Source: Cyclina sinensis
Taxonomy: Eukaryota > Mollusca > Bivalvia > Venerida > Veneridae
DNA length: 64,000 nucleotides
Direction of reading: 5' to 3'
Assembly (NCBI GenBank): GCA_012932295.1
Contig: JAAONU010000016.1
Coordinates: forward strand, 30,069,290 to 30,133,289
Positions 1-62,845 of the stretch are shown one piece after another. The notes under the pieces are model-generated. The model searched no databases. It worked only from the letters and a program-made list of their open reading frames with translations, and was not told the origin of the DNA. Every line of letters starts with the position of its first letter. The first letter of the stretch is position 1. Both the position numbers and the translations under genes were made by a program.

Positions 1-1650
1 CTTTAAAAATCTTCTTCTCCGAAACCACAAGGCCTGGAGCTTTGATATTTGGTATGAAGCATCATCTAGTGGACCTCTGCCAAGTTTGTTCAAATTATGT
101 CCCTGGGGTCAAAAATGGCCCTGCCCCGGGGGTCACTTGTTTTACATAGAGTTATATAAGAAAGTCTTAAAAAAACTTCTTGTCAGAAACTGTAAGTTAC
201 AGAGCTTAGATATTTAGCGTGTAGCAATATCTAGTGGACCTCTACCAAGCTTGTTCAAATCATGGCCTCTGGATCAAAAATGGCCCTGCCCCGGGGGTCA
301 CTTGTTTTACATAGAGTTATATAGGAAAGTCTTAAAAAAACTTCTTGTCAGAAACTGTAAGTTACAGAGCTTAGATATTTAGCGTGTAGCATTGTCTAGT
401 GGACCTCTACCAAGTTTGTTCAAATCATGGCCTCTGGGTCAAAAATGGCCCCGCCCCAGGGGTCACTTGTTTTACATAGAGTTATATTGGAAAATCTTAA
501 AAAATCTTCTTTTCAGAAACCGTAAGTTATAGAGCTTAGATATTTGGTGTGTAGTATTGTCTAGTGGACCTCTACCAAGTTTGTTCAAATCATGGCCTCT
601 GCTTCAAAAATGGCCCCGTCCCAGGGGTCACTTGTTTTACATAGAGTTATATAGGAAAAACTTTAAAAATCTTCTTGTTAGAAACCGTAAGTTATAGAGC
701 TTAGATATTTGGTTTGTAGCATTGTCTAGTCTAGGTTTTAAAAATCTTCACAGGAGAAACCATAAGGCTTAGAGTTAAGATATTTTGTATGAAGCATTGT
801 CTAGAGGACCTCTACCAAGTTTGTTTAAGTCATGGACCCTAGGTCAAAAATGGCCCCACCCCAGGGGTCACATGTTTTACAGAGAGTTATATAGGAAAAG
901 GTTTTAAAAATCTTCTTGTCATAAACAACAAGGCTTAAGTTAAGATATTTGTTGTGCAGCATTACCTAATGGACCTCTATCAAGTTTGTTCAAATCATGG
1001 CCCCTTGGTCAAAATAGGCCCTGCCCTAGGGGTCACATGTTTTACATAGAATTATATAGGGAAAACTTGAAAAATCTTCTTGTCAAAAACCACAAGGCCT
1101 AGAGTTAAGATATTTGGTATGCAGCATTGTCTAGTGGACCTCTACCAAGTTTGTTAGAAAAATGTCCCTGGGGTCAGTATTGGACCTGCCCCAGGGGTCA
1201 CAAGTTTTAAATAACAATATAGAAGAAAATCTTTAAAAATCTTCTTGTCTGAAACCACAAGGTCTAGAATTTTAAAATTTGGCACGAAGCAAGCTATCAA
1301 GCTTTTTCAAATTATTAGATTAGGTTAAAGGTCACGGAGGCTAAAAGTAGATTTATCTACTGTACCTCATAGAGCCTTCATTTATAGACCAATATCTTTG
1401 ATATTCAGTGTAGAGGTTCCTTGCATGGACCTCTACCCATGGGTAGGGTTTGAGGTCACTGGGTCAAGGTCAAGGTCACTATAGATTATAATAGATATTT
1501 CTACTTTCTGTCATAGAGCCTTTATTTATTGACTGATATTTTACATATTTGGTTTGTAGGCACTTACATATTTTCAATTAAAAAATGAAATACTGCTTAA
1601 CAGCAAACCTACAGCCAAAGTACTCAGGTGAGCGATCCAGGGCCATCATG
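1..1650. repeat. Tandem ~165-bp repeat array (intron of CFAP46-like gene)
   Basis: About eight diverged copies of a ~165-bp unit run from the window edge. Each copy has a CTTCTT..AGAAACC segment, TTAGATATTTGG, CTAGTGGACCTCTACCAAG, a GGTCAAAAATGGCCC segment and AGGGGTCACTTGTTTTACAT. The last ~350 bp drift into GGTCAAGGTCAAGGTCAC-type sequence that recurs at 15240-15780. No coding exon is visible. It lies upstream of the first resolved CFAP46-like exon, so it is probably intronic. Confidence 0.85.
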
Positions 1651-2053
1651 GCCCTCTTGTTTACTCTAAAACTTTGAAAATATCATGTCAGCTGTGTTCT
1701 GTTGATGATGATTGAATTAATCTAGAAACTAATGAAATGCTAGATTTAATGCATGGTTTGATGAACTCATGAAAAAAATGATTTTCTTTTAAGAATTCAG
1801 TTACTTAATGGTTGTCTTAGATTTTGTTTTAAAGTATTGAAATTTCCAACGGTTTTTCATCTTCACAACCTACCAACTTAAATTGCTACCAGTGCTATTA
1901 AGTACTGCAGGTTCAGTAATTTTATACATTCATTTTTTTCATACAGTATAGTATTTGCTTTGATAAGTTTTGACCCATCATTACAAAACTGCAAAATTTC
2001 ATGTATTGAGGAAATATTTTGTTTTCAGTTTCATTTTTTTTTTACCTTTAAAG

Positions 2054-5000
2054 CACCAAGTCGAGCCAAGGTGTTTGGAATGGAGACAAGTAGGGTGGAG
2101 TTGGAGGCCTTGCTAGCTAAATGTCGTGATCACAGACAAAATGTACAACAGTTACTGTTGAAACAAGAATATCAGCGTTCCCAGGCGGCAATGAGACGTA
2201 AAATGTTAGAAAACCTTGACGACAGTATGAAAAGTCAGAGACCCAAGGTAATCATCTGCATTCTGTGTTCACACTTTGAGAGTGTAAATGGTAGCTTAAC
2301 TTTCATAAAGTGACAGATATATTAAATAACCTATAAGATTTTAGTTTTTTCTAATTCAGAGTGTAAGAATGATAGCCTTTTTGTTTTACAGTGAGATTGT
2401 CTCAAAACTACATTTATATATTTCTAAGAACATTCATAGTCCAAAAGGATTTTAAACTTTTCAGACAAAATATGTTTGACTGATAACCTAGGTTGGCATT
2501 GTGAAATGATAAAATGTAACATTAGAACCAGGTTAAAAAGGGAGCAACAGAAAGTGATTTAACAAGATTGCAAATGATGGATCATGACATTAGAAATCAG
2601 AATTATTAGAATGCCTTGACTGTGTCATAGACATAGAAAGATTTATTCCACTACAGATGTACTGGGAAAAGAGTGATTTGTCTGTGAGTTGTACAAAGTT
2701 TATTAGCTCTGTTTTGAGTTTATTTATATCTTAGTTCATCTTGCCAGTTGTATCTAGTTACAGTCTACAGTTTCGTATAGTGTAATTCTATTTTCGGTCT
2801 TTGGGTATCATTTTAGGGATGGGTTTTTTGTAAATTCATTTAATTAGCATAGCTGGATTGTATCTATTTGGAGTTCATTTATTGTTGGTACTGGTTGCCT
2901 GTATGACTGACACCTTTTGAAGAGTTTAGTTATTTTAGGTTGTAAGGAGAGTGCAAGATACAGGAAACATCCCATTCCAGAGACATGCTTGGTTTTTTTA
3001 CATGCTTGTTTTATAGCACCAATACATACCATAATATATAGGTTAATGTCTCATCTGAACAACAATTAGAAGGAGGAGGAGTGGGGATCAAACATGTTAC
3101 TATTAGTTATATGTCATGGGTGTAACCATTTGACCACTGATCCATCCCATTGCTGGAAAGCTAGTTTTTTAACTTAACTTGCACTTTAGAAATGTAAAAA
3201 TAAAAGATTTTTTTTGGTATTTTAGTTAAAAATCAGCGATCAAGTGAGTAAGAGAGCCAAGAGAGTTTTGCCTGGTTAATTTTAGTAGAGAAAAATCACT
3301 AAAGCTAGATTTAAAATGTGTCTAACAGTATATGTTTTGTAATGTAAAAGAAGGAAATTAAGTCACTTTTTCATTTAAGAGAGGTGTTTGGGTTTCTGTT
3401 GAGGTTTTGTTCAAGGTTCATATTATTTTGTTTATGATATTATATCTTTGCTGCTTATGTTTTTGATTCTTTGATAACTTGTTTCAAATTCATACAGTTT
3501 AAGATATCTGAAGAGTATGAATTTTCAAAGAATAGAAAATTGAAAATTTGCAGAAGATTGTGTACATTTGCAATACTGTCTTTATTGATTCCCGGGCCCT
3601 ACAGTCTTCCATTTTGATAACTATGTTAATATCAGTAAAAGCATGCATTGAAAAAAGGATTTCAATATCAGATCAAGTACAGACTTTGCATAAAGCAGGT
3701 TTTTAAAAAATATTCAAAGGTTGCTTTATAAGTTTAAGTTACAGTAAATTGACTCTGTGAAAGGTACATGTTTAAGCTGAGAGCCTTTTTAACTGCTGTA
3801 ACTCTGAAGTTACTTGATCAACAAAACAAACGAAAAGAAATTCGAGTCAGAGATCTTCAGACTATCATCAGCCCTTAGATTTTCTTTGTTTTCTGCAGAC
3901 GCTGGCAGATGAGAGTGAGAGAGAAGAGCGCCATCTACAGGATGAGTTCCGAGATCTTGTCATGGCAGTAGAAATGTACCTTAAACCTATCACTGCACAG
4001 TTTGATGGTATCTTAGTGTAAGTGTTGTGACACTTTTAACTTTCTATATAGAAACCAGTGGTCATTAAATGTTGTAAATACAGATGATGAAAAAAACCTC
4101 TTATTGTATGAGTAAGTGAATACATGCACTAAATTCTAGCAAACATTGTACATCTAGTAAGAAAAGCCTGTGTACAAATTTACCAGTCAAGTTAAGGCAA
4201 AAGGGCTTGTAATCCTTTTTAAATGTAGATTTCAAACATCTCAGCTGTTTCCATGTTGGGACAAAAAACAACATAGGAATAAATATAAAATAATCAGAGA
4301 ACTGAAAAAAGTTGAAATTTGATACAGTTACTTTATACCTTTTATACAGTCCACCAATTCCAAGCCCCTCAACCAGTGTAACAGAGAAACCAGGACGTGA
4401 GCCCAAGGAACCCCCTCCACCACCTCAGGAATATGCCATCCTGCTAGTGGACCCAGAACTAATGGAGCTGCCTCTGGAAGCTCTGAAGGTGTTCCAGGTG
4501 GAAAGCATTGTATCCCTGACCAGAGACTTCTCATTGCAACTGTTCTATCATAGATATCACCAGGACAACCCAGAAGGTAAGAAAAACTTCAGAGCTTTAG
4601 TTAGGATTTAAAAGAATTTGAGACACTCCATAAACTTAGTAAAGGTATTTTGCCAGCACTTTCCCTAGATTCTGTAATGCAAAAGTAACTTGGGATATGC
4701 TTTGTGAATAATTTTCCTTTCCTTTGTGTCCCCTGTGCGTTTTGCATCATGAAGATTCATTTTTCCATGTCTGAAATATGAATGTAGGTTGTCCCATAAG
4801 GTTTTCTCCTTGAGTGGTGTTTCATCTCATGAAATGGTGAACTTTTTCATAAAATTATCCTTTGCCTTTTGTGTTACGAAGAAGTACATCTTGTAATTAA
4901 ATTTTCCCTTTGTCATGTGTTCAAATCATTATTCATAAATTCTTCGTTTGCCCTGTGTTTTAAATCCTGAAATCTTCATTGATAAATTTTTCCTTTGTCC

Positions 5001-8000
5001 TTTTATTCATAAGTGCTCCTTGTCCTGTGTTTAGTATTTTATATTCTATTTTTACTGTTTCATATTGATAGTGAATCTGTGGTAATCAGTTTTCATTTTC
5101 ATGTAAAAAAAACACTGTGATTTAAATGTACCGGTAACCATTCATTTTCTTCCTTTTCTTGAAATAGTGGTTCAGAATTGTAAATTCTTGTCTCCTTTTT
5201 CTGATGGCATTCGTACCAGCCTCTTTGGTCCAGTGGTTACAATAGCCTATGGTTCTTACAGTCAGTTAACTTCTCACTGATTTCGGTGGTACTGGTCTCT
5301 GTGGTTGACTGATTAAAGTACCTGACAGTTCTTGTAATCAGTTAACCATTCAGTGATGGAATTGGTACCAGCCTGTGTGATCCAGTGGTTAAAGTAGCCA
5401 TGGTTCTTATTATCAGTTAACTTATCACTGATAGAGGTGGTACCAGCTTCTGTGTTCCAGTGGTTAAAGTAACCAACATTTCTTGTAATCAGTTAACTAT
5501 TCACTGATGGAACTGGTACCAGCCTGTGTGGTCCAGTGGTCAATGTAAGCATGGTTCTTATTATCAGTTAACCTCTCTCTGATGGCAGATCATGGGTTGA
5601 GCCCCACCACAGCCCATGAAACATTCAATGAACCTGTCACTGTTTGAGGTGGTACCAACCTCTGTGTTTCAGTGGTTAAAGTAAACAACAGTCCTTGTAA
5701 TCAGTAAACTTGTCACTGATGGAACTGGTGCCAGCCTGTGTGGTCCAGTGGTCAGTGTAACCATGGTTCTTATCAGTTAACCTCTCTCTGATGGAAGATC
5801 ATGGATGAGCCCCACCACAGCCCATGAAACATTCATTGGTTCACTGTTGGATGTGGTACCAACCTCTGTGTTTCAGTGGTTAGGGTAGCCAACAGTTTTG
5901 GCAATCAGTTAACTTGTCACTGATGGAACTGGTACCAGCCTGTCTGGTCCAGTGATCAGTGAAGCCAATGGTTCTTATTATCTGATGGAAGATCATGGGT
6001 TTAGCCCCACTACAGCCCATGAAACATTCATGTGAGAAAGTTTCATAGAGAGAGTGGTCCATACCAGGATTGATGGTTAGGTAAACTGCTGGCCTGAAAT
6101 GACTGTTAGAAGGTGTTTATGTCCACTAAAACTAAACCAAAACTAAACAGATGGAAGTGGTTTGTAAACTTTCCCTTTTTTCTTGTCATTAATTTACCTT
6201 GTACCTTGTGTTTTAGAGGAGGGTGCAGGTCAGTATAGAAAACTAGTATTTTATGTTTTAACAGTAGTTCATAGAATGTTATAAATATGTAATAATTGAA
6301 GTTTTATTTACTCACTAGTCTGAATGGTTGAAGGTATTCACTGGTTGAAGTACATGTAATTTCAAATATAAAGTAACCAAATAAATTTTGGTTTGGTATC
6401 CAGTTAACTTTTATGTCTTACCATGAGATATTTATGTTAACCTTTTGGTTATGGTATATGTTGTCACTTTTGGTGTATATTTCTTTAGAAACACTCCCTA
6501 GAATCACATAGGAATATATGTGTAGTTTTTAAATGTTTATGTAGGGAACAAAGAGTTTTTTTATTATGATATTCTGTGCATTAGGTTGCCATACAGAGCT
6601 TAGAAACCGCATAGTGATAATTTCCTTGTATGGTCTGTGCAGCAGAGATTTCTATAGAAAAAAAAAGAAATCTTTTTCTTTTTCATATTCTGTGCAATAG
6701 TTGCCTCTTTAGACCAAAACAGTGTGACAGAAACTTAACTACAGACTGTTTTTGTTCTTTAAACTGTATTGTAATGAAACAAACTATAAGAAATCCTTCT
6801 GCTAGACAAATAGTTAAAAAATTAAGAGGATCAATATTAATTTGATAGTTTGTACTTTTGAGCAGACATTCTAGGAGCAGACATTCTTGGATGCTTTTAG
6901 TGTTTTGATCATTCAGATAACATGTACATAGATCCATTGACCATTTTGTGTACCCACTGACAGATATATTGTGATTTACTAAGTATTTATTTCTTGGTGA
7001 AACAATTATTCTGATGTCATTTTACAGCAGTGTCTCAGGCACCTAGTAAGAAGGGGGAAGCCCCTAAAAGTGCTGCCCCAAAATCTGGAAAGTCAGGACA
7101 TGGGCAGGGCAGTCAGTATATTATTATGACAAAATTTGCTTGTGTATGAATTAGATAGAAAATTACATAACAGTGTTAATTTTGCATGTTATAATTTAGT
7201 GTGCTATCTTTTGCATGCAAAATAAAGTCATGTTCACCTGCTTACACAATGTATTTAGGTCACATCTTAGAAGGCAGAAATAGATTAAAAAAAAAAAAAA
7301 ACTTAACCAGAATATGATCAAAATACTAACCAGTATATTTATGGAGAGACATTATTTTCAAATATTGCAATGGTAATTTCCTTCATCATGTGAATCTGAG
7401 CCATGTATAAGCCATGAAGCCAAAATTTTATGAAAATGAGTCCCTTAAAAATGTGTGAATTAACATGAAGAAGTTTTTGAGGATAATTATTCTGACTTGA
7501 GGTTATGGATTTGCAAATACACCATGTTGGTTAGTCAGAAACCAGATTTAGAACATGAAGAATCTTGAGTTGAATACAACAAGTAAATTTGACTTCCTCA
7601 AAGCTCTTTTGATGAATGTAACATAAATAGTACTTTTGTAAGCAGTTCCTCAGAGAATGTAATATGACGATTACACGAGAAAAAGGGCTCTCGGACATAA
7701 TTTTTGGAAATTGACAGTTTACTTAATATTCAAACAACGATATCCCAGGATTTTTGTCTGAAATTTTCAGCTTCTTACATAGAACAGATAAGATATTCTA
7801 TCCTATTGAAAAGTAACATGAAACCAAACTGATATTCCTTAAAATAATGTCACATAGCCAAATTTGACATCAGATTTTATCTAAGTTTCAGTTGGCAGCA
7901 AATCAATATAGTAGATTTTATTCATTTGAATTTTAGCTATTTCTCTGTAAAATTCTATACCATTTGCATATATCTCACCTTATTACAAATCTATAATAAA

Positions 8001-11000: not shown

Positions 11001-14000
11001 TATGTGAGAAAGTTGACAGTTTCTTACAGAAAATGGGAAGTCTACTACTTATCCTTCCTGATGTAAAGGTGAATATAGCCGATATAACTTTGACAATAAG
11101 AGGGTGTTAAACTAGATTCAACTTACTTAGGAATTCCTTAACCTGGCTCCTAGTTATTGTTGATCCACATCTGGACTGTGCAGAAACAGGTAAGACAATA
11201 GATTCAGTTCTGTTTATTTTGAATTTGATGGTCTGGGGACACCTGTTCCGGAAAAAAAGTAATGCATCCTTAGGGTTATAGCTAGGACTTTCTTGCCATT
11301 TGTTTAAAAATATATGCTTCAAAATACCAAATTTGTGCGTTCTCTTTATTGCCATTTTTATGCCCCCACCACTTGGTTAAGGGGTGGGCGGGGTGGAAAG
11401 CATATAGATTTGCCCTTGTTCATCCATCCACTGTCTGTATGTAGAATTGTTTGTGTCATGTGTAACTCCAAACGTATAACTGCTAGAGCCATGAAACTTC
11501 CTAAGAATAGTTGTCAGCATGTGAACTTATGCACCTAGGGTATTTTAACGCAAATTTATTGGAGATCTGCAGATTAAGCAAAATATAGCATTTTTATGCC
11601 CCCCTTTGAAAAAGGGAGAGCATATTGCTTTGCTGCTGTCTGTCGGTCGGTCGGTCGGTCTGTATGTCCACCAATAGTTTCTGTTCAATTTCTTTGCAGA
11701 AGTTGCACATACTGAAATAAAATTTGGTATACAGATTTATCATAAGAATATCTAGGTCAAGTTTTGTTTTGGGTACGATCAAGCAATTTTTGACAAAGTT
11801 ATGCCCCTTGGACTTAGAAAAATTCCAATTATTTGCAGTTTCCGTTCATTTTCTTTGCAGAGGTTGCACATACTGAAATAAAATTTGGTATACAGATTTA
11901 TCATAAGAATATCTAGGTCTAGTTTTAGCTTAAAATGCATTTTTAGACACCTTAATTTTAAGGACAATGTTTATATGCACCTGTAATTGTACAGAATTTT
12001 TTGTGACAATACAGCAGAATGTGGGGGCATCCACGTCCTATGGACATATCTCTAGTTTTTATGCCCCCGAAGGGAGGCATATAGTTTTTGAACTGTCCGT
12101 CCATAATTCTGTCCGAAAACTTTAACATTGGTGATAACTTCCTTATTAGTAAGTGGATTTACTTCATACTTGGACACAGTACCCCTTTGGACAAGACCTT
12201 CCAACTGACCTATATTTATTTGACCTTAACCCCTGAATGACCTTCAACTTGAAGATCCAGTTGTCCAAAAACTTTTAACAGTTGACCATAACTTCCTTAA
12301 TAGTAAGTGGATTTACTTCATATATGCACACAACACACCTTTGGACAAGACCTTCCAACTGACCCTACATTTATCTGACCTTGTCCCTTGAATATCCGGT
12401 TGTGCAAAAACTAACATTTGGACATAACTTCCATATCAGTAATGGATATACTTCATACTTAAACACAACACCTCTTTGGATAAGACCTTCCCATTGACCT
12501 ATATTTATTTGACCTTGACCCTTAAATGCACCACTTTAGGGGGGGACATTGTCATCTTACAGTGACAGTTCTTGTTTCATTAAATCATGTTTCACAGCCA
12601 CTTTTATTTCAAACTTTTTTAAAATACTAAAAAGACTGACAAGTGTAATTGAAGTAGTACTGAATGAGAAAGAAATACTGTCAGTTTTTGTTCATAAAGG
12701 TTTCTACTTGAATTAAGTTTGTCCAGATGTTACACCCTTTTTATAAAAAAGTAAGTATGAAAGGTAGCAAAGCAAAACTTGCTGTTCTGTAGAATATTTC
12801 AGTATGTCATTTCTGTTGTATTTCTGTTTTGCTTTTTACAGAGGAGAACAAGCCCATCAATGTATTTGAGAAAATTCTAGAAGAGTATGAACAACAGTTT
12901 ACACCACGCTGGCTTGGGGTCATGGGAAATGAACACACACCAAGGTAATTTGTCATGTTTATTTTGCTCTAATTTGGAAATGAGTTAAAACTTGTATTAA
13001 TTATTTGTGCAGACAGATTAAGATCTTTGCTATACTTTGGTCAGTCTGTAATTGTTCAGTATCAGTGAATACCCCTTAAATGATAAACTGGTCAGACCAA
13101 ATTGAATGATGGAATAGTCCATTCAAGAAATTAAGTGAGGTTAGGGTTAAATGTTGTTGAATATGACATATGTGCAAAAGTCCATCAAAGACTTTTTAAG
13201 AATCAAAATGTTACGTTTTTCAGTGTTGGAGAATGGGAGGTTTATTTCTTGGAGAACAGCTCATTCATCTTCTATGGCATGGAGAGACTACTGTCCTACA
13301 TAACACCTGCAAAACTTTCTGCTCTGAATATTCCAGGTAGAGATTATATATATCTAAAGGTTCACTGCCATAAAGTTTAGCCACATTTTGCATACTCCTC
13401 AGAAACTACTGGTGTGATTTCATCCAAACTTTACAGGAATGATCAGTACCAAGTCTAGTTGTGCATATTGTCGGCATTTTCCAGTCCAATGCTATTTGTG
13501 AGAGTTATGGCCCTTTTATGATTTTTATTTTTAAAGTTTGTCCGGACTACTTCTCTTATACTACTAATGCAATTTGAATGAAATTTTACAGGATTGGTCA
13601 GTACCTCAAGTACTTGCACATATCTAATGGGTTTTCAGTTTTTCAGTTTTCAGTTGAATGATTTTTGGCTGAGTTATGGCCCTTGAATGAAAAAGGCGTT
13701 TTAGCCAAATAATGAATTTTGTGTTGCAGGCTTCACAGTAGCTGCGACATGCTAAAAAGTAGCCATGACATATAGGGATCACTTACCCATCATCTGTCTG
13801 TCTGTCCGTCCATCCATCTGTCTGTCTGTCCATCACAAAACTTGTCCGGACTACTCCTCAGAAACCACTGGTGCGATTTCATCCAAACTTTACAGGAATG
13901 ATCAGTACCAAGTCTAGTTGTGCATATTTTTAGCATTTTCCAGTTCAACGCTTTTTGTCAGAGTTATGGATCTTAGATATGGATTTTTATTCTTAAAGTT

Positions 14001-55944: not shown

Positions 55945-58900
55945 AATAACTTATGCCCAGATAACGGTTGAACTGTTTTTCATTTAGAAGAAATTATGGA
56001 TAATACACTTGCAGACAGGTTAAATAGTGTTCTTGAAGATGGACCTGGAAGAATTCAGTCAGGCAAGACCAATGAAGATAAGTCAGCCAGCAGTGATTTA
56101 GTGTTAAACAATGATAGTTCAGATTTGGACCTGATAGAAAATTCTACAAAGGAAAACTTTGAAGCAGACAATACTAATGAAACTGAAGAGAAAGTCTGTG
56201 ATAACAGAAATCAAGAGTTGGAAGATGGAGCTGAAAAATTACCAGGAGAAAGTCTTGAAACAAATGTAGAAAATTCAAAGTTGGTGCCTGGTGACATTGG
56301 GGATAGTGATGATAGAACTAAAAAAGAAAGTGCAATAAATGAAAACTGTGATAAAGATATGATAGAAAATTCAACTAAAGAGGGAAGTGAAACAAAGGGA
56401 GACAACTGTGAAGACAACAAGGAAGATGAGGACAATGATGAATTTGCAGATTTCAGTGAAGAATCAGGTTCTGATGCAGAATATGAGTCCGCAGAGGAAG
56501 GGGAAGAAATACATACTGACAAACAAAACTTGAAGGAACTGGAGGAAACTCTAACAGAAGAGGAGAAAGAGGTTTTTATATTATGCTTCATGTCATTTTT
56601 CAAAATTATTTCAAGGTAGTTTTATCACAAGATTTAGCAATATTGATAAATGCATCTTTAGGTGCTTTAAAATGAAATTATAAGAACTACTATTTCATTA
56701 TCATGGAATTTATACACCTCTCTGTTACACTCTCTGCCTTACAGTAAAATAGACTGTTCTAAATTTGTAATGCAAAAGTTCTGCAGGAAGAAGAACAGAG
56801 AAAAAGACATGGATGTATGCCAAACTTTCCTTTTCTCAGCTAGCATTGGCTTAAACTAATGAGACTTTCACTCTAAAAAATAGCTGTACAGATACATTTG
56901 AGCACCGCTCCAGGAAAACCGGGCTTAATGACAAAAATTTCGATTTTTAGTTTTTTTGATAAATGAATACAGAAATATTTGAAGGTAAAAAAACTGAAAA
57001 CCGTTTCTTGCTATTGTGGATTTTAACGATTTTATGGCGATTTAAACACAATAGGTGTCAATAATATATGAGGAAATTAACACGACGTCGTATTGACGTC
57101 ATTTTTTACATGTCATGTCCATTTCGCAGGAAACAATGGTTTCATCTTCCTTATAAGAATAAACTTACAAGCACACAACATTATAAAGATGACTGTTAAT
57201 TTACTTAGATTTAAATCGTTAATGGTTTTTCAATGAAATTGAAAAGCATTGCACATATGAACTTTCAAAAAAAGTCACTGATTGTCGTCAGTGGCAGTAG
57301 CTGGGCAAGTAATATCTTGGAAAGATGGACGGACATATGGACGCACGTTCTTGTACAAATATTCCTGTCTCTGCCTGGATAGCCCTCCGGCAGGAAGAAC
57401 AGGTGGTAAGCTGGCAGGGAACTGAGCACGGGGGCGTAACACCTGCACCTCAATTTCTTCACTGTCACTCGAAGTCCGGACAACAACAACGCCAGGCTTT
57501 TGTGCACTCAGACGAAAATACTGGTATTTGCTGGAACGATACAAAAACAAATAAGAAAATATAGATATGAAACATATACTACCAAGCTTACAATCTAACA
57601 TATTTCTATTAAAATTTGTGCAATAGACAGAAAAAAATACAGTTAATACAACTCGCCAATGATTATATGCAAAACGAAACCATTTCTTATTTTTAAGTTG
57701 AACCTGTTCGCATTAAAATAATGCTGGTTTAATTACTTTGATTATTACATATTATCGTTTATAACCTAAGAATTCAACTTATCCAGGAACTTATAATCTT
57801 ATTTACCGAATGCCGGGAATAGATCGTATGACTGGGTCGAGGAATGATCGCCAGTCTCGCCACTGCCAGGCCGGATACCGGACCGCAACATTTGTTGTTG
57901 AAGATTTGTTAACAACTGCCTCCAGCTGGTCTATTCCGTCGCAGTCTGAACGGCGATAAAGCTTCTTTAGTAAAGCAAATCCACCATCAATCAAGCAACG
58001 GGCGTGACCCGGAATTTGCATCATTAGCTCGATTTTCTCGTGTCTCCCAGTCATCACACGCCATAACAGATATCCGATTATGTAGCGGTTTTTATTTTGC
58101 CCTGTAAAATAACAATTTTACAACTTCGTTGTTGTTGTTATTATTATTACTATAGCCGGGTACAGCTATATGGGTAAAATGCAGTTATTATCATTATTGT
58201 TGATGTTGTTGTTTAGTAACTTCGGTATTTTGATGTGTCAGACAGAACACTGTCAACATTTATCCGAAAATATGAATACTATTATACTTAATGATAAAAA
58301 AGATTATTTTAAAAATAGTACTATCTGTCTGTGTAAACTGTACTACTTCTGTTTACACCTTACACGATGCATTTTTTATTTGAATCGGCGATGAGTGTTA
58401 TGCATGATTTAATGAAGAATAAACTTGTCGTTAGTTTTTTTTGTAATTTTCATTACCTGGGCAGTTGTCTGCATGTATGGCACACGCCGATTCTCCGGGT
58501 TCACGCCTTGTCTCCATCGCCCAGTCTATCATAGAAATGACTGCGTTCGGGCCGTGTGTGCTTGTTCCGTCTGCTCCGATCGTTTCATTCTCATCAACCA
58601 GAAAGTTGAGTTGTGTGGGGATGTTGTCGATACGGAAGCCAAATATTTGGATCTTGCGTAATGTTGTAAAATATACAGGACCCATCTGTCGTGCATGGTG
58701 TGGAATACACACATTTTGACTGAAGTCAAAAGTGTAATGGATGTACCGATCAGTGTCATTAGATTCACGAGAACGTTTCACACAGGTGTTATACATCTCA
58801 CGTTCTTTTTGGGCCGCTTGTACGTGGCTGCGTAGTTTTTGGGTAGACTCCAGCTTCTCTTCCTCAGAGATAGAGTCCATAACTTCCTTTCGAAACCGCT

Positions 58901-61900
58901 CACACGTTGCACAGACGTCATCACGTGGACTTGCTATTTTAATGTGCGGAAGACATGATCTCCAGATATTATTAAATGTGGAGTACTTCACCGCTCGTGT
59001 TATCGGAACTGTCTCTGCACAACTTCCTATGTATGACTTGTGAACAGCAACCTTCGTGGTATCACTGGGGAGATACACTGGAGCATCACCGTCACGACCA
59101 CATGGTGCTGCTGGCTGGGGAATACCAATCTCATCCGCGTAATTGCTTATGAATTGGACCACAGCTCGGACATCCTCAAACTGCAAGGACTTGGCAGGTC
59201 TTTTACCTACGTTTTTATGTACACGTGGCACGACACCGTTTACTTGAACGTGTTTCATAATGTTCTGCAGTGCATGTTTACCTACATCGAACACCAACAT
59301 AAACACCGCTTTGCAAACTTGGCGGCCCCTAAATGTAAAGTCATAGTGTGACCTCTGCCTCTTTTTGCCACGCTGTGTTGTTTCCTTCTTAATGTTGGAA
59401 ATAATCGAGGTCATGATGACCATTTCCTTCTCAGACTTGTCCATTTCTCTAATGTTTAAAATGTTGCAGCAAAGTTCAGAGTCTGTAAAAGTGTCAATGC
59501 AATGTTTATTGCAACACCCTCTGCTTCTCATTTGTTTAAGTCTTTCAAGGTCGGGATCGACTTCCGTATCTTCCCCACTACTACTGCTGCTGCTGTTGTC
59601 ATGCTCTTCAACGAATCTCTGAACCCGATCATCTATATCATTTCTACAAGTGTCTTCATCTTCTTCATCAGCCACCTCTTTGTCACTTGCTTCATTTTCA
59701 CTTAGATCGACGCTGGCCTGCGAGGCAGTCGGTGTTCTCCCAAAATGTTCTGAGAACAAACTTTCCAGCTCCTGAAAATACACAAAGATCCACCCATCTA
59801 ATTGAATTGATTGAATGATATTTAAATAAGCGTTATTTTTAATCAGAGTCACTTGACGTAAAGATTTCGACCAAGATTCTTTATGAATATGATCCCAGAT
59901 TTCTAACCAGGCAGTTCATAATAAAAATTAAAGGAAACAGACGAGTCGGTAGGGATTATCACAACAACAACAACAAAAAGGTAAGGATGGCTCGCGCCCG
60001 TATTGTTTCAAAAGCAGTATAAGATCTAGATCTAGATGAAAATCTAAAAAATGATATAAATTCACGTAGATCTAGTAAACTTTTTAAAAATTAAGTGATT
60101 TCTTAAGTAAGCACTAAATGTAACCCGGACTGGTTTAGGATATATATGTCTATAAAAATATTATACATATTGAGTAAATAAAAAAAAAACATAAAAATAG
60201 ATACGATCGGGTTTCGAACTCGTGCCCAAAATATACAAAACTATTGAGCGGCCGTCACTGTATCCACTACACCAAACTGACAACTGACATGACATGTAGT
60301 AAATGTTTTATATGTAGTTTTAGCCGTGCCCGCCAAATGACAAGCAACTGAGAAATTTAGCACTCATCAAATTATTTCTGATTGTGTTGAATCAGTTAAT
60401 AATTTCAACAAGGTTTAAAAAAAAAACGGATCTATTTCATCGTTAAATGAACTTACACGTTGCTAGTTAATCTTCATGGCTAAATATGGTTTAAAAACAA
60501 TTCCGTTTGCAACAACACCGAACATTGTTTAAAATAAGAAGTAAAACCTAAGTATCAGTCGAAAATATTGTAATTTGCCTTTATGTCATTAAAATCGTTT
60601 CTAAAAATGGTTTTGTAAAAAGTCCGCGAAATCCTAAAAAGTGCGCCAAATCAATATTGTCAGAAAATAAGAAATCAAATAGGTTATTAAATAAAATATT
60701 GGCATTCCGATGTATTTTACTCACCTCAAGTTCACTATCCATCTTTTACATTCACTAGCACGGGATCAAATACCGAGAAATTGCGTAAATAGTGTTTAAA
60801 ATGAAACTTGCTCAAAGCGAAAGTAGTAAGCGATGTGTTTACAAGTGACGTCAACAGTTTTCGACGTCATAACTGAGATGTCATTAAGCCCGGTTTTCCT
60901 GGAGCGGTGTTCATTTATATGCATCTGTGCATTGTGATCAAGATTAGCACGGTTCACTACACTGTTACTTCTAAGTTTTAAGTTCAAACTCCCATTTAAA
61001 TGGGTTTTGGTCAGTCCAGACCTCCTGAAAGATAAGTCCATTTTAGAAATTTTGGCAGGTTTAAAGTATGTTGAATTTTTGTTCTTGTTTCAGGAGCGAA
61101 GAGGCACAGCACAGGAAATGAAGGAAGAAGGAAATGAATTGTTCCGCTGTGGAAGCTACAAGTCAGCTATACGTATTTATTCCAGAGCTCTAAGAACTTG
61201 CCCTCTTAAGTATGCTAAGGATAGAGCAATCATGTACTCAAATAGAGGGGCCTGTAAAATGAGATTGGTATGTATAAAAAATTAACAGTGAATTCAAAAA
61301 GTAACAATTTATAATATATGTCTGTTGCACAGATCCAGAAAGCTAAAAACTTGTCATATACCTGTCTCTTGCACAGATCCAGAACAGCAAGTTTTTTGTG
61401 ATAAGAGGTGTCAGTTAAATTTTGAAGACAATTGAATAATTTTTATGTATGTCATTTTGTGCCACTGTCAAAATTTTACAGGAGGAATATGAGGATTCCA
61501 TAAAGGATTGCAGCAAAGCCCTTGAACTTCATCCACATTATATGAAGGCTTTGATGCGAAGGGCGGAGTTATATGAGAAAACTGAAAAGTTAGATGAGGC
61601 TTTAACTGACTACCAGAAAATACTTGAAATTGATCCATCACAGCACACAGCCAGGGCTGCCTGTATTGTAAGTGAACTAGGATGTTTTTATCTTCTTATT
61701 TTATAGCATTTTACGCTTGGCTAAAAATCTGTCTTATCATTTTCTTGATGAATTAAGTAATATCTGAAGAGTTCTTTCCATTTACCAGTAGTTAAAGAAC
61801 AGTTAAAGGAAATCCATATAGCTCTAAATGTTTGATAAGTTGGCCTTTTGTCATACACTCATCAAGTTTTTGTGACAGTGGTTAACCTTTGACTGACATG

Positions 61901-62480: not shown

Positions 62481-62845
62481 ACAACAGCCACTGTCAATTA
62501 TTTATATTTTCACAACAGCCACTGTCAAATATTTATATTTTAACAACAGCCACTGTCAAGTATTTATATTTTAACAACAGCCACTGTCAAGTATTTATAT
62601 TTTAACAACAGCCACTGTCAAGTATTTATATTTTCACAACAGCCACTGTCAAGTATTTATATTTTTACAACAGCCACTGTCAAGTATTTATATTTTAACA
62701 ACAGCCACTGTCAAGTATTTATATTTTAACAACAGCCACTGTCAAGTATTTATATTTTAACAACAGCCACTGTCAAGTATTTATATTTTAACAACAGCCA
62801 CTGTCAATTATTTATATTTTCACAACAGCCACTGTCAAGTATTGT
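62481..62845 (+). repeat. 31-bp minisatellite, about 12 copies
   Basis: The unit is ACAACAGCCACTGTCAAGTA then TTTATATTTTA. Copies differ at one or two positions (C/A before ACAACAG; AATTA, AAATA or AAGTA). The array starts 17 bases after the TTC1 exon ending at 62463, inside the intron. Degenerate units (ACCAACCACTGTAAAGA) continue to about 62975. Confidence 0.92.

Follow-up and report, generated by a model that had tools for sequence, protein, structure and literature searches.

A young Sola-like DNA transposon of the bivalve Cyclina sinensis with a gene for a probable DDD transposase of the DUF7869 family

A stretch of 64,000 nucleotides from Cyclina sinensis (contig JAAONU010000016.1, positions 30,069,290 to 30,133,289; hereafter the window) carries within a host intron a 4013-bp segment, 56900-60912, that looks like an intact DNA transposon. 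To address the question of what kind of transposon this is and whether its gene encodes the enzyme that moved it, we analysed its ends, its copies and its protein. We consider it highly probable that the segment is an autonomous cut-and-paste transposon that moved recently and belongs to the Sola superfamily, with Sola2 as its closest match, and that its four-exon gene specifies a 627-amino-acid (aa) transposase with three catalytic aspartates (DDD) belonging to the family DUF7869. The element is real, young and autonomous in structure, and it represents a new family within an established kind of transposon.

Structure of the element and its gene

The element is bounded by terminal inverted repeats (TIRs) of 34 nt each, at 56900-56933 on the plus strand and 60879-60912 on the minus strand, which are 97% complementary with one mismatch. 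They are flanked by the two copies of a target-site duplication, ATTT, at 56896-56899 and 60913-60916. Between them lies a transposase gene of 627 codons in antisense orientation to the host gene; no second gene besides it was recognised in the element. The frame runs uninterrupted from ATG to TGA on the minus strand through four exons, and all three introns have GT-AG borders. Exon 1 (60725-60742, encoding MDSELE) is followed by intron 1 (59772-60724), exon 2 (58457-59771), intron 2 (58102-58456), exon 3 (57807-58101), intron 3 (57531-57806) and exon 4 with the TGA stop (57275-57530). The codons of D355 (58725-58727) and D441 (58467-58469), the candidate first and second catalytic residues, are located in exon 2, while exon 3 holds the GQNKN motif and the codon of the candidate third residue, D483 (57986-57988). 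Splicing of the four exons into one RNA is predicted from these borders. An earlier note on the window had already described the inverted ends with their single mismatch, the ATTT on both sides, the four-exon gene free of stops and bad splice sites, and an intron inside the motif D...HADNCPGQNKN. The sequence bears out each of these, and intron 2 divides the motif as HADNCPG/QNKN (slashes mark exon borders).

The same gene structure is kept in L016, a copy from a sister subfamily introduced below. All three intron positions are common to both genes, including the one after the 18-bp first exon. In L016 the borders read ATGGACAGTGATTTAGAG/GTAAG and TTCAG/GAGTTGGAAAG for intron 1, TGTCCAG/GTATGT and TTTCAG/GTCAGAATAAG for intron 2, and AGAATAAG/GTGAGA and TGCAG/GCAATATCAG for intron 3.

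Copies in the genome

The assembly searched comprises 903 Mb in 154 contigs; copy counts are lower bounds, because the DNA search scored the best candidates only. At least four full-length copies are present, the window copy on contig C8 and others on C2, C10 and C6 that are 99.58, 99.50 and 99.03% identical to it, respectively. The 627-codon frame is whole in three of the four, the copy on C6 (L011) having an 11-bp deletion in exon 2. The earlier note had called the element young and of autonomous type and had looked to further copies with the same ends as a check; three more full-length ones at 99.0-99.6% identity, together with the frame preserved in most of them, sustain that description. 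Older, broken copies were also found in the same assembly.

A sister subfamily has copies on C17, C5, C12, C19, C1 and C16, with about 66% DNA identity to the window family in long aligned parts and 58% amino-acid identity in exon 2; four of its copies are mutually 95.9-99.7% identical over about 3.9 kb. Comparison of L010 from the window family with L016 gave a proportion of synonymous differences (pS) of 0.88, which is saturated, versus a proportion of nonsynonymous differences (pN) of 0.25 over 609 codons without stops. The spliced frame has therefore been under selection along both lineages. Within subfamilies, nine pairs exceeded a dS of 0.02, and their ratio of nonsynonymous to synonymous divergence (dN/dS) was 0.41-0.72. 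Constraint is weaker here, which one would expect if copies decay once they have inserted. For L009/L010 and L016/L017 no ratio was obtained, as neither pair differs at a synonymous site; those of the window copy with L009 and with L010 are based on four synonymous changes apiece, and the calculation passed over stop codons in old copies.

The older copies also differ in content. L012 (3443-3902) and L013 (7232-7691) contain in intron 1 a stretch of about 460 bp, 94% alike between the two, that is missing from window 59772-60724; either the young lineage lost it by internal deletion or the older one acquired it. L013 moreover holds two insertions of about 1.9 kb, at about 1296-3152 and 3557-5441, with common ends AGCTCACCTGTCACG...GGCCATCATGGCCCTCTTGTT; the likeness, seen at the ends, suggests some mobile element.

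Target-site duplications and an empty site

A pattern made from the TIR, allowing up to two mismatches, matched 30 times in the 903 Mb and its reversed control not once. These matches resolve into 13 two-ended elements, spanning about 3.5-9 kb, and four single ends; short non-autonomous derivatives with both ends were absent among them. All 13 two-ended elements, from the window family and the sister subfamily together, are flanked by a perfect 4-bp duplication. The duplication is ATAT in seven (L009, L011, L012, L016, L017, L019 and L021), ATTT in five (the window copy, L010, L013, L020 and L051/L031; two of the five read AAAT in element orientation) and ATAC in one (L018), so that 12 of 13 are of the type AWWT (W, A or T). 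L012 is included in spite of changes in the outermost three bases at one end; its duplication was taken beyond those bases. The count covers two-ended elements; outside it stand the single ends at C14:41148734 (L014), C12:38868560, C16:38041212 and C17:22725615 as well as copies or fragments without matching ends, for example L015, L022, L025, L026 and L028.

Two of these elements, L013 on C16 and L051/L031 on C1, are inserted at the identical point, ...CCCACTGACCTATATTT, of a tandem-repeat unit. An unoccupied unit in L027 reads CCCACTGACCTATATTTATTTGAC, which equals the joined flanks of L013, and the occupied site has one extra ATTT. The pattern CCCACTGACCTATAT finds three units in L027: one exact, one with a one-base difference and one more different. 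The L027 unit is a paralogous rather than an orthologous empty site, shorter by 4 bp. A unit resembling this tandem repeat is perhaps also present at window 12248-12527, where a tandem repeat finder lists one of similar appearance.

The protein and its relatives

Comparison of the window protein with Pfam revealed DUF7869 (PF25273; E-value 1.1e-15, 58.2 bits, gathering score 26) and no other family at E up to 1. The family is matched by all 47 aligned homologs. Among these, D355 and D441 are conserved in 47 and D483 in 46, and the three aspartates are invariant in all 25 members of a more divergent set. They are spaced by 86 (D355-D441) and 42 residues (D441-D483). Their conservation points to a DDD active site, which would presumably be set in an RNase H-like fold. 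Conserved cysteines near the N-terminus and in a DVCATC motif could serve as zinc ligands and contribute to DNA binding, although this is a guess based on their conservation.

Searches for homologs returned 120 of 130, 120 of 193 and 120 of 454 matches, the last of them scoring the 8000 candidates that shared most words. The closest full-length relatives among the matches listed share about 53% identity across 98-99% of the length. The genera named there include what we take to be bivalves (Ruditapes, Mercenaria, Mya, Crassostrea, Ostrea, Saccostrea, Tegillarca, Pinctada, Dreissena and Mytilus), gastropods (Aplysia, Elysia and Patella), the hemichordates Ptychodera and Glandiceps, the crinoid Antedon, the sea urchin Diadema and the sponges Halichondria and Dysidea. 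Two homologs, P0026 and P0152, are filed under bacterial metagenome-assembled genomes (Sedimenticola sp. and Gammaproteobacteria); they probably represent animal DNA that was binned with a symbiont, not genes of bacteria.

The same genome contains at least 133 stretches matching DUF7869, counted exon by exon among the best 150 of 234 candidates scored, while 14 control genomes contain none. Part of them belongs to a second family, in which an open frame of 913 aa occurs at four places and one of 881 aa at a fifth. Of the two copies followed, that on C6 measures 5183 bp from CGTCGG to CCGACG, has ends that agree at 32 of 40 positions and is flanked by ATAT on both sides; its sibling on C14 is flanked by AGAT. 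Over 330 aligned columns, the 905-aa open reading frame (from the first Met) of this family shares only 21% identity with the window protein. It can nevertheless be aligned to a profile of the 47 homologs, starting at the N-terminal cysteines and reaching past the third aspartate, with the three aspartates in register. Two DUF7869 proteins that differ greatly are thus each encoded by an element with inverted ends and 4-bp duplications. Two further pairs (L063/L064 with L069/L070 and L066/L067 with L071/L072) showed no clear ends, because identity either passed the fetched stretch or stopped in a repeat, and were dropped. Several groups of DUF7869 stretches lie on different contigs with equal scores and open frames of equal length (three pairs were compared), which suggests recent multiplication.

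Assignment to Sola and the alternatives

Sola elements are characterised in a published description by a DDD transposase, a 4-bp target-site duplication, TIRs of 11-1124 bp and a size that mostly falls within 2-9 kb (PMC10741241). Repbase divides them into the subgroups Sola1, Sola2 and Sola3, according to PMC4455052. Sola2-type families of slime moulds are reported to have AWWT duplications and others ATAT, AAAT or ATTT (PMC3627910), and a survey of molluscs and bivalves reports 14 curated Sola2 consensus elements (PMC10294476). The present element has a 4-bp duplication in 13 of 13 cases, a TIR of 34 bp and a size of 4013 bp within these ranges, and three aspartates that are conserved in its homologs and in register in the relative of 21% identity. 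It thus resembles Sola2 in its mostly AWWT duplications, TIR length, size, putative aspartate triad and occurrence in a bivalve. It differs from a Sola2-type element of slime moulds, for which PMC3627910 gives an 888-aa transposase and which belongs to elements that carry Fanzor1, in having a 627-aa protein and no recognised second gene. With 12 of 13 duplications of the AWWT type, Sola2 is therefore the best filing, made by described features rather than by transposase sequence. The suggestion of Sola, which the earlier note had derived from the 4-bp duplication, accordingly fits best once duplication sequence, aspartates, size and ends are considered together.

By this assignment, the spliced transposase RNA would give rise to a protein that binds the 34-bp ends, and its DDD site would cut the element out. 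The element would then be joined to an A/T-rich target of the form AWWT, cut with a stagger of 4 bp that host repair would turn into the 4-bp duplication. End binding and excision are presumed in this reading, and the copies may be active at present.

Several observations weigh against this reading. Neither the ATAC duplication of L018 nor the AGAT of the second family, one of its two, is of the AWWT type, and those of L011 and L012 lie within AT runs, where a 4-bp match is less telling. The protein has no convincing relative by sequence in the PDB, and the word transposase is absent from the source names of the homologs among the matches listed, as printed in abbreviated form. The PDB matches, to the ribosomal protein uL3m (E 0.13 and 0.15; 0.72 and 0.85 in a second search) and to a CsLinker chain (0.24), were taken as chance. 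The window copy, moreover, has a Cys of its own at residue 230, described below.

The link to Sola by description rather than sequence leaves room for a different view, in which DUF7869 elements form a DDD superfamily of their own that merely shares 4-bp AT-rich duplications with Sola. Pfam lists DUF7869 as a domain of unknown function, and no paper naming it was found in the literature searched; the motif GQNKN led, by titles and opening lines of abstracts, only to papers on unrelated subjects. The structural marks examined nevertheless match Sola, and Sola2 in particular, and we regard a separate superfamily as unlikely.

Somewhat less likely still is that the window copy is dead or adopted by the host, with relic ends and a gene that is either kept for a host role or simply young junk. 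This view draws on residue 230 (codon 59100-59102), where the window copy has a Cys private to it among the four full-length copies. L009 and L010 have Arg, at 59102 all three siblings have the same alternative base, and the 47 homologs have Arg (34), Ser (9), His (2), Pro (1) or Lys (1), never Cys. The residue weighs against a working copy and qualifies the term intact, which the earlier note had applied and which holds for the frame and the splice sites. However, the near-identical dispersed copies with duplications of their own indicate that movement was recent, and the constraint between subfamilies fits a lineage of working copies.

A transposon of another superfamily with short duplications appears very improbable. 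Ginger and Chapaev/CMC also make 4-bp duplications, whereas piggyBac and Kolobok make TTAA duplications, and Ginger carries an integrase-type (rve) domain. The duplications ATAT, ATTT and ATAC are not TTAA and speak against piggyBac and Kolobok; the window protein, which at E up to 1 matches DUF7869 only, has no Pfam match to an integrase-type domain such as that of Ginger or to a CMC-type transposase domain. Among the 47 homologs (25 of the 30 families touched at E up to 1 were shown), the best other family reached E 0.011, and the sole DDE family shown, at E 0.026, was found in a single homolog. An assembly artefact or segmental duplication, for which no supporting point was found, can practically be dismissed, as each copy has different flanks and its own 4-bp duplication and a paralogous empty site exists.

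Implications for DUF7869

The Sola2-like transposon described here gives DUF7869 a concrete likely role: it would be a DDD transposase whose target duplications are 4 bp long and AT-rich. Two element families of one genome that differ widely support this role; the function as a transposase is probable from conservation and gene context. The PF25273 proteins of bivalves, gastropods, hemichordates, echinoderms and sponges belong to the same family as the window protein, and the setting of such genes within elements was examined in the present genome. Genes annotated as uncharacterised DUF7869 proteins in molluscs and other animals may consequently be genes of transposons, not of the host. One can further speculate, as a possibility we judge doubtful, that DUF7869 supplies the catalytic DDD core to a large transposase superfamily with 4-bp AT-rich duplications, either distinct from Sola or making Sola much wider than presently drawn. 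The 133 stretches in one genome and the two families that share 21% protein identity and have both ends and duplications are the points behind it. The young and nearly uniform family, with its frame intact in three of four full-length copies, is well suited to bench testing.

The host gene

The element lies in a plus-strand host intron of 4522 nt (56572-61093). Removal of the element leaves 509 nt, the figure claimed before, and removal of one ATTT as well leaves 505 nt. The host gene had been named TTC1; an intron of a gene with TPR repeats is what the computed evidence upholds, and the name itself is presumptive. TPR matches are weak, below cut-off, in the next host exon (61094-61267) and clear in the open stretch 61440-61703 (TPR_1, E 1.3e-15). 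The end of the preceding host exon was placed by reading frame and next exon, and the donor site there, GAG/GTTTTT (within window 56565-56580), fits the usual consensus poorly. Further downstream in the host gene region, at window 62481-62843, a 31-bp tandem repeat occurs in 11.7 copies with 97% matches.

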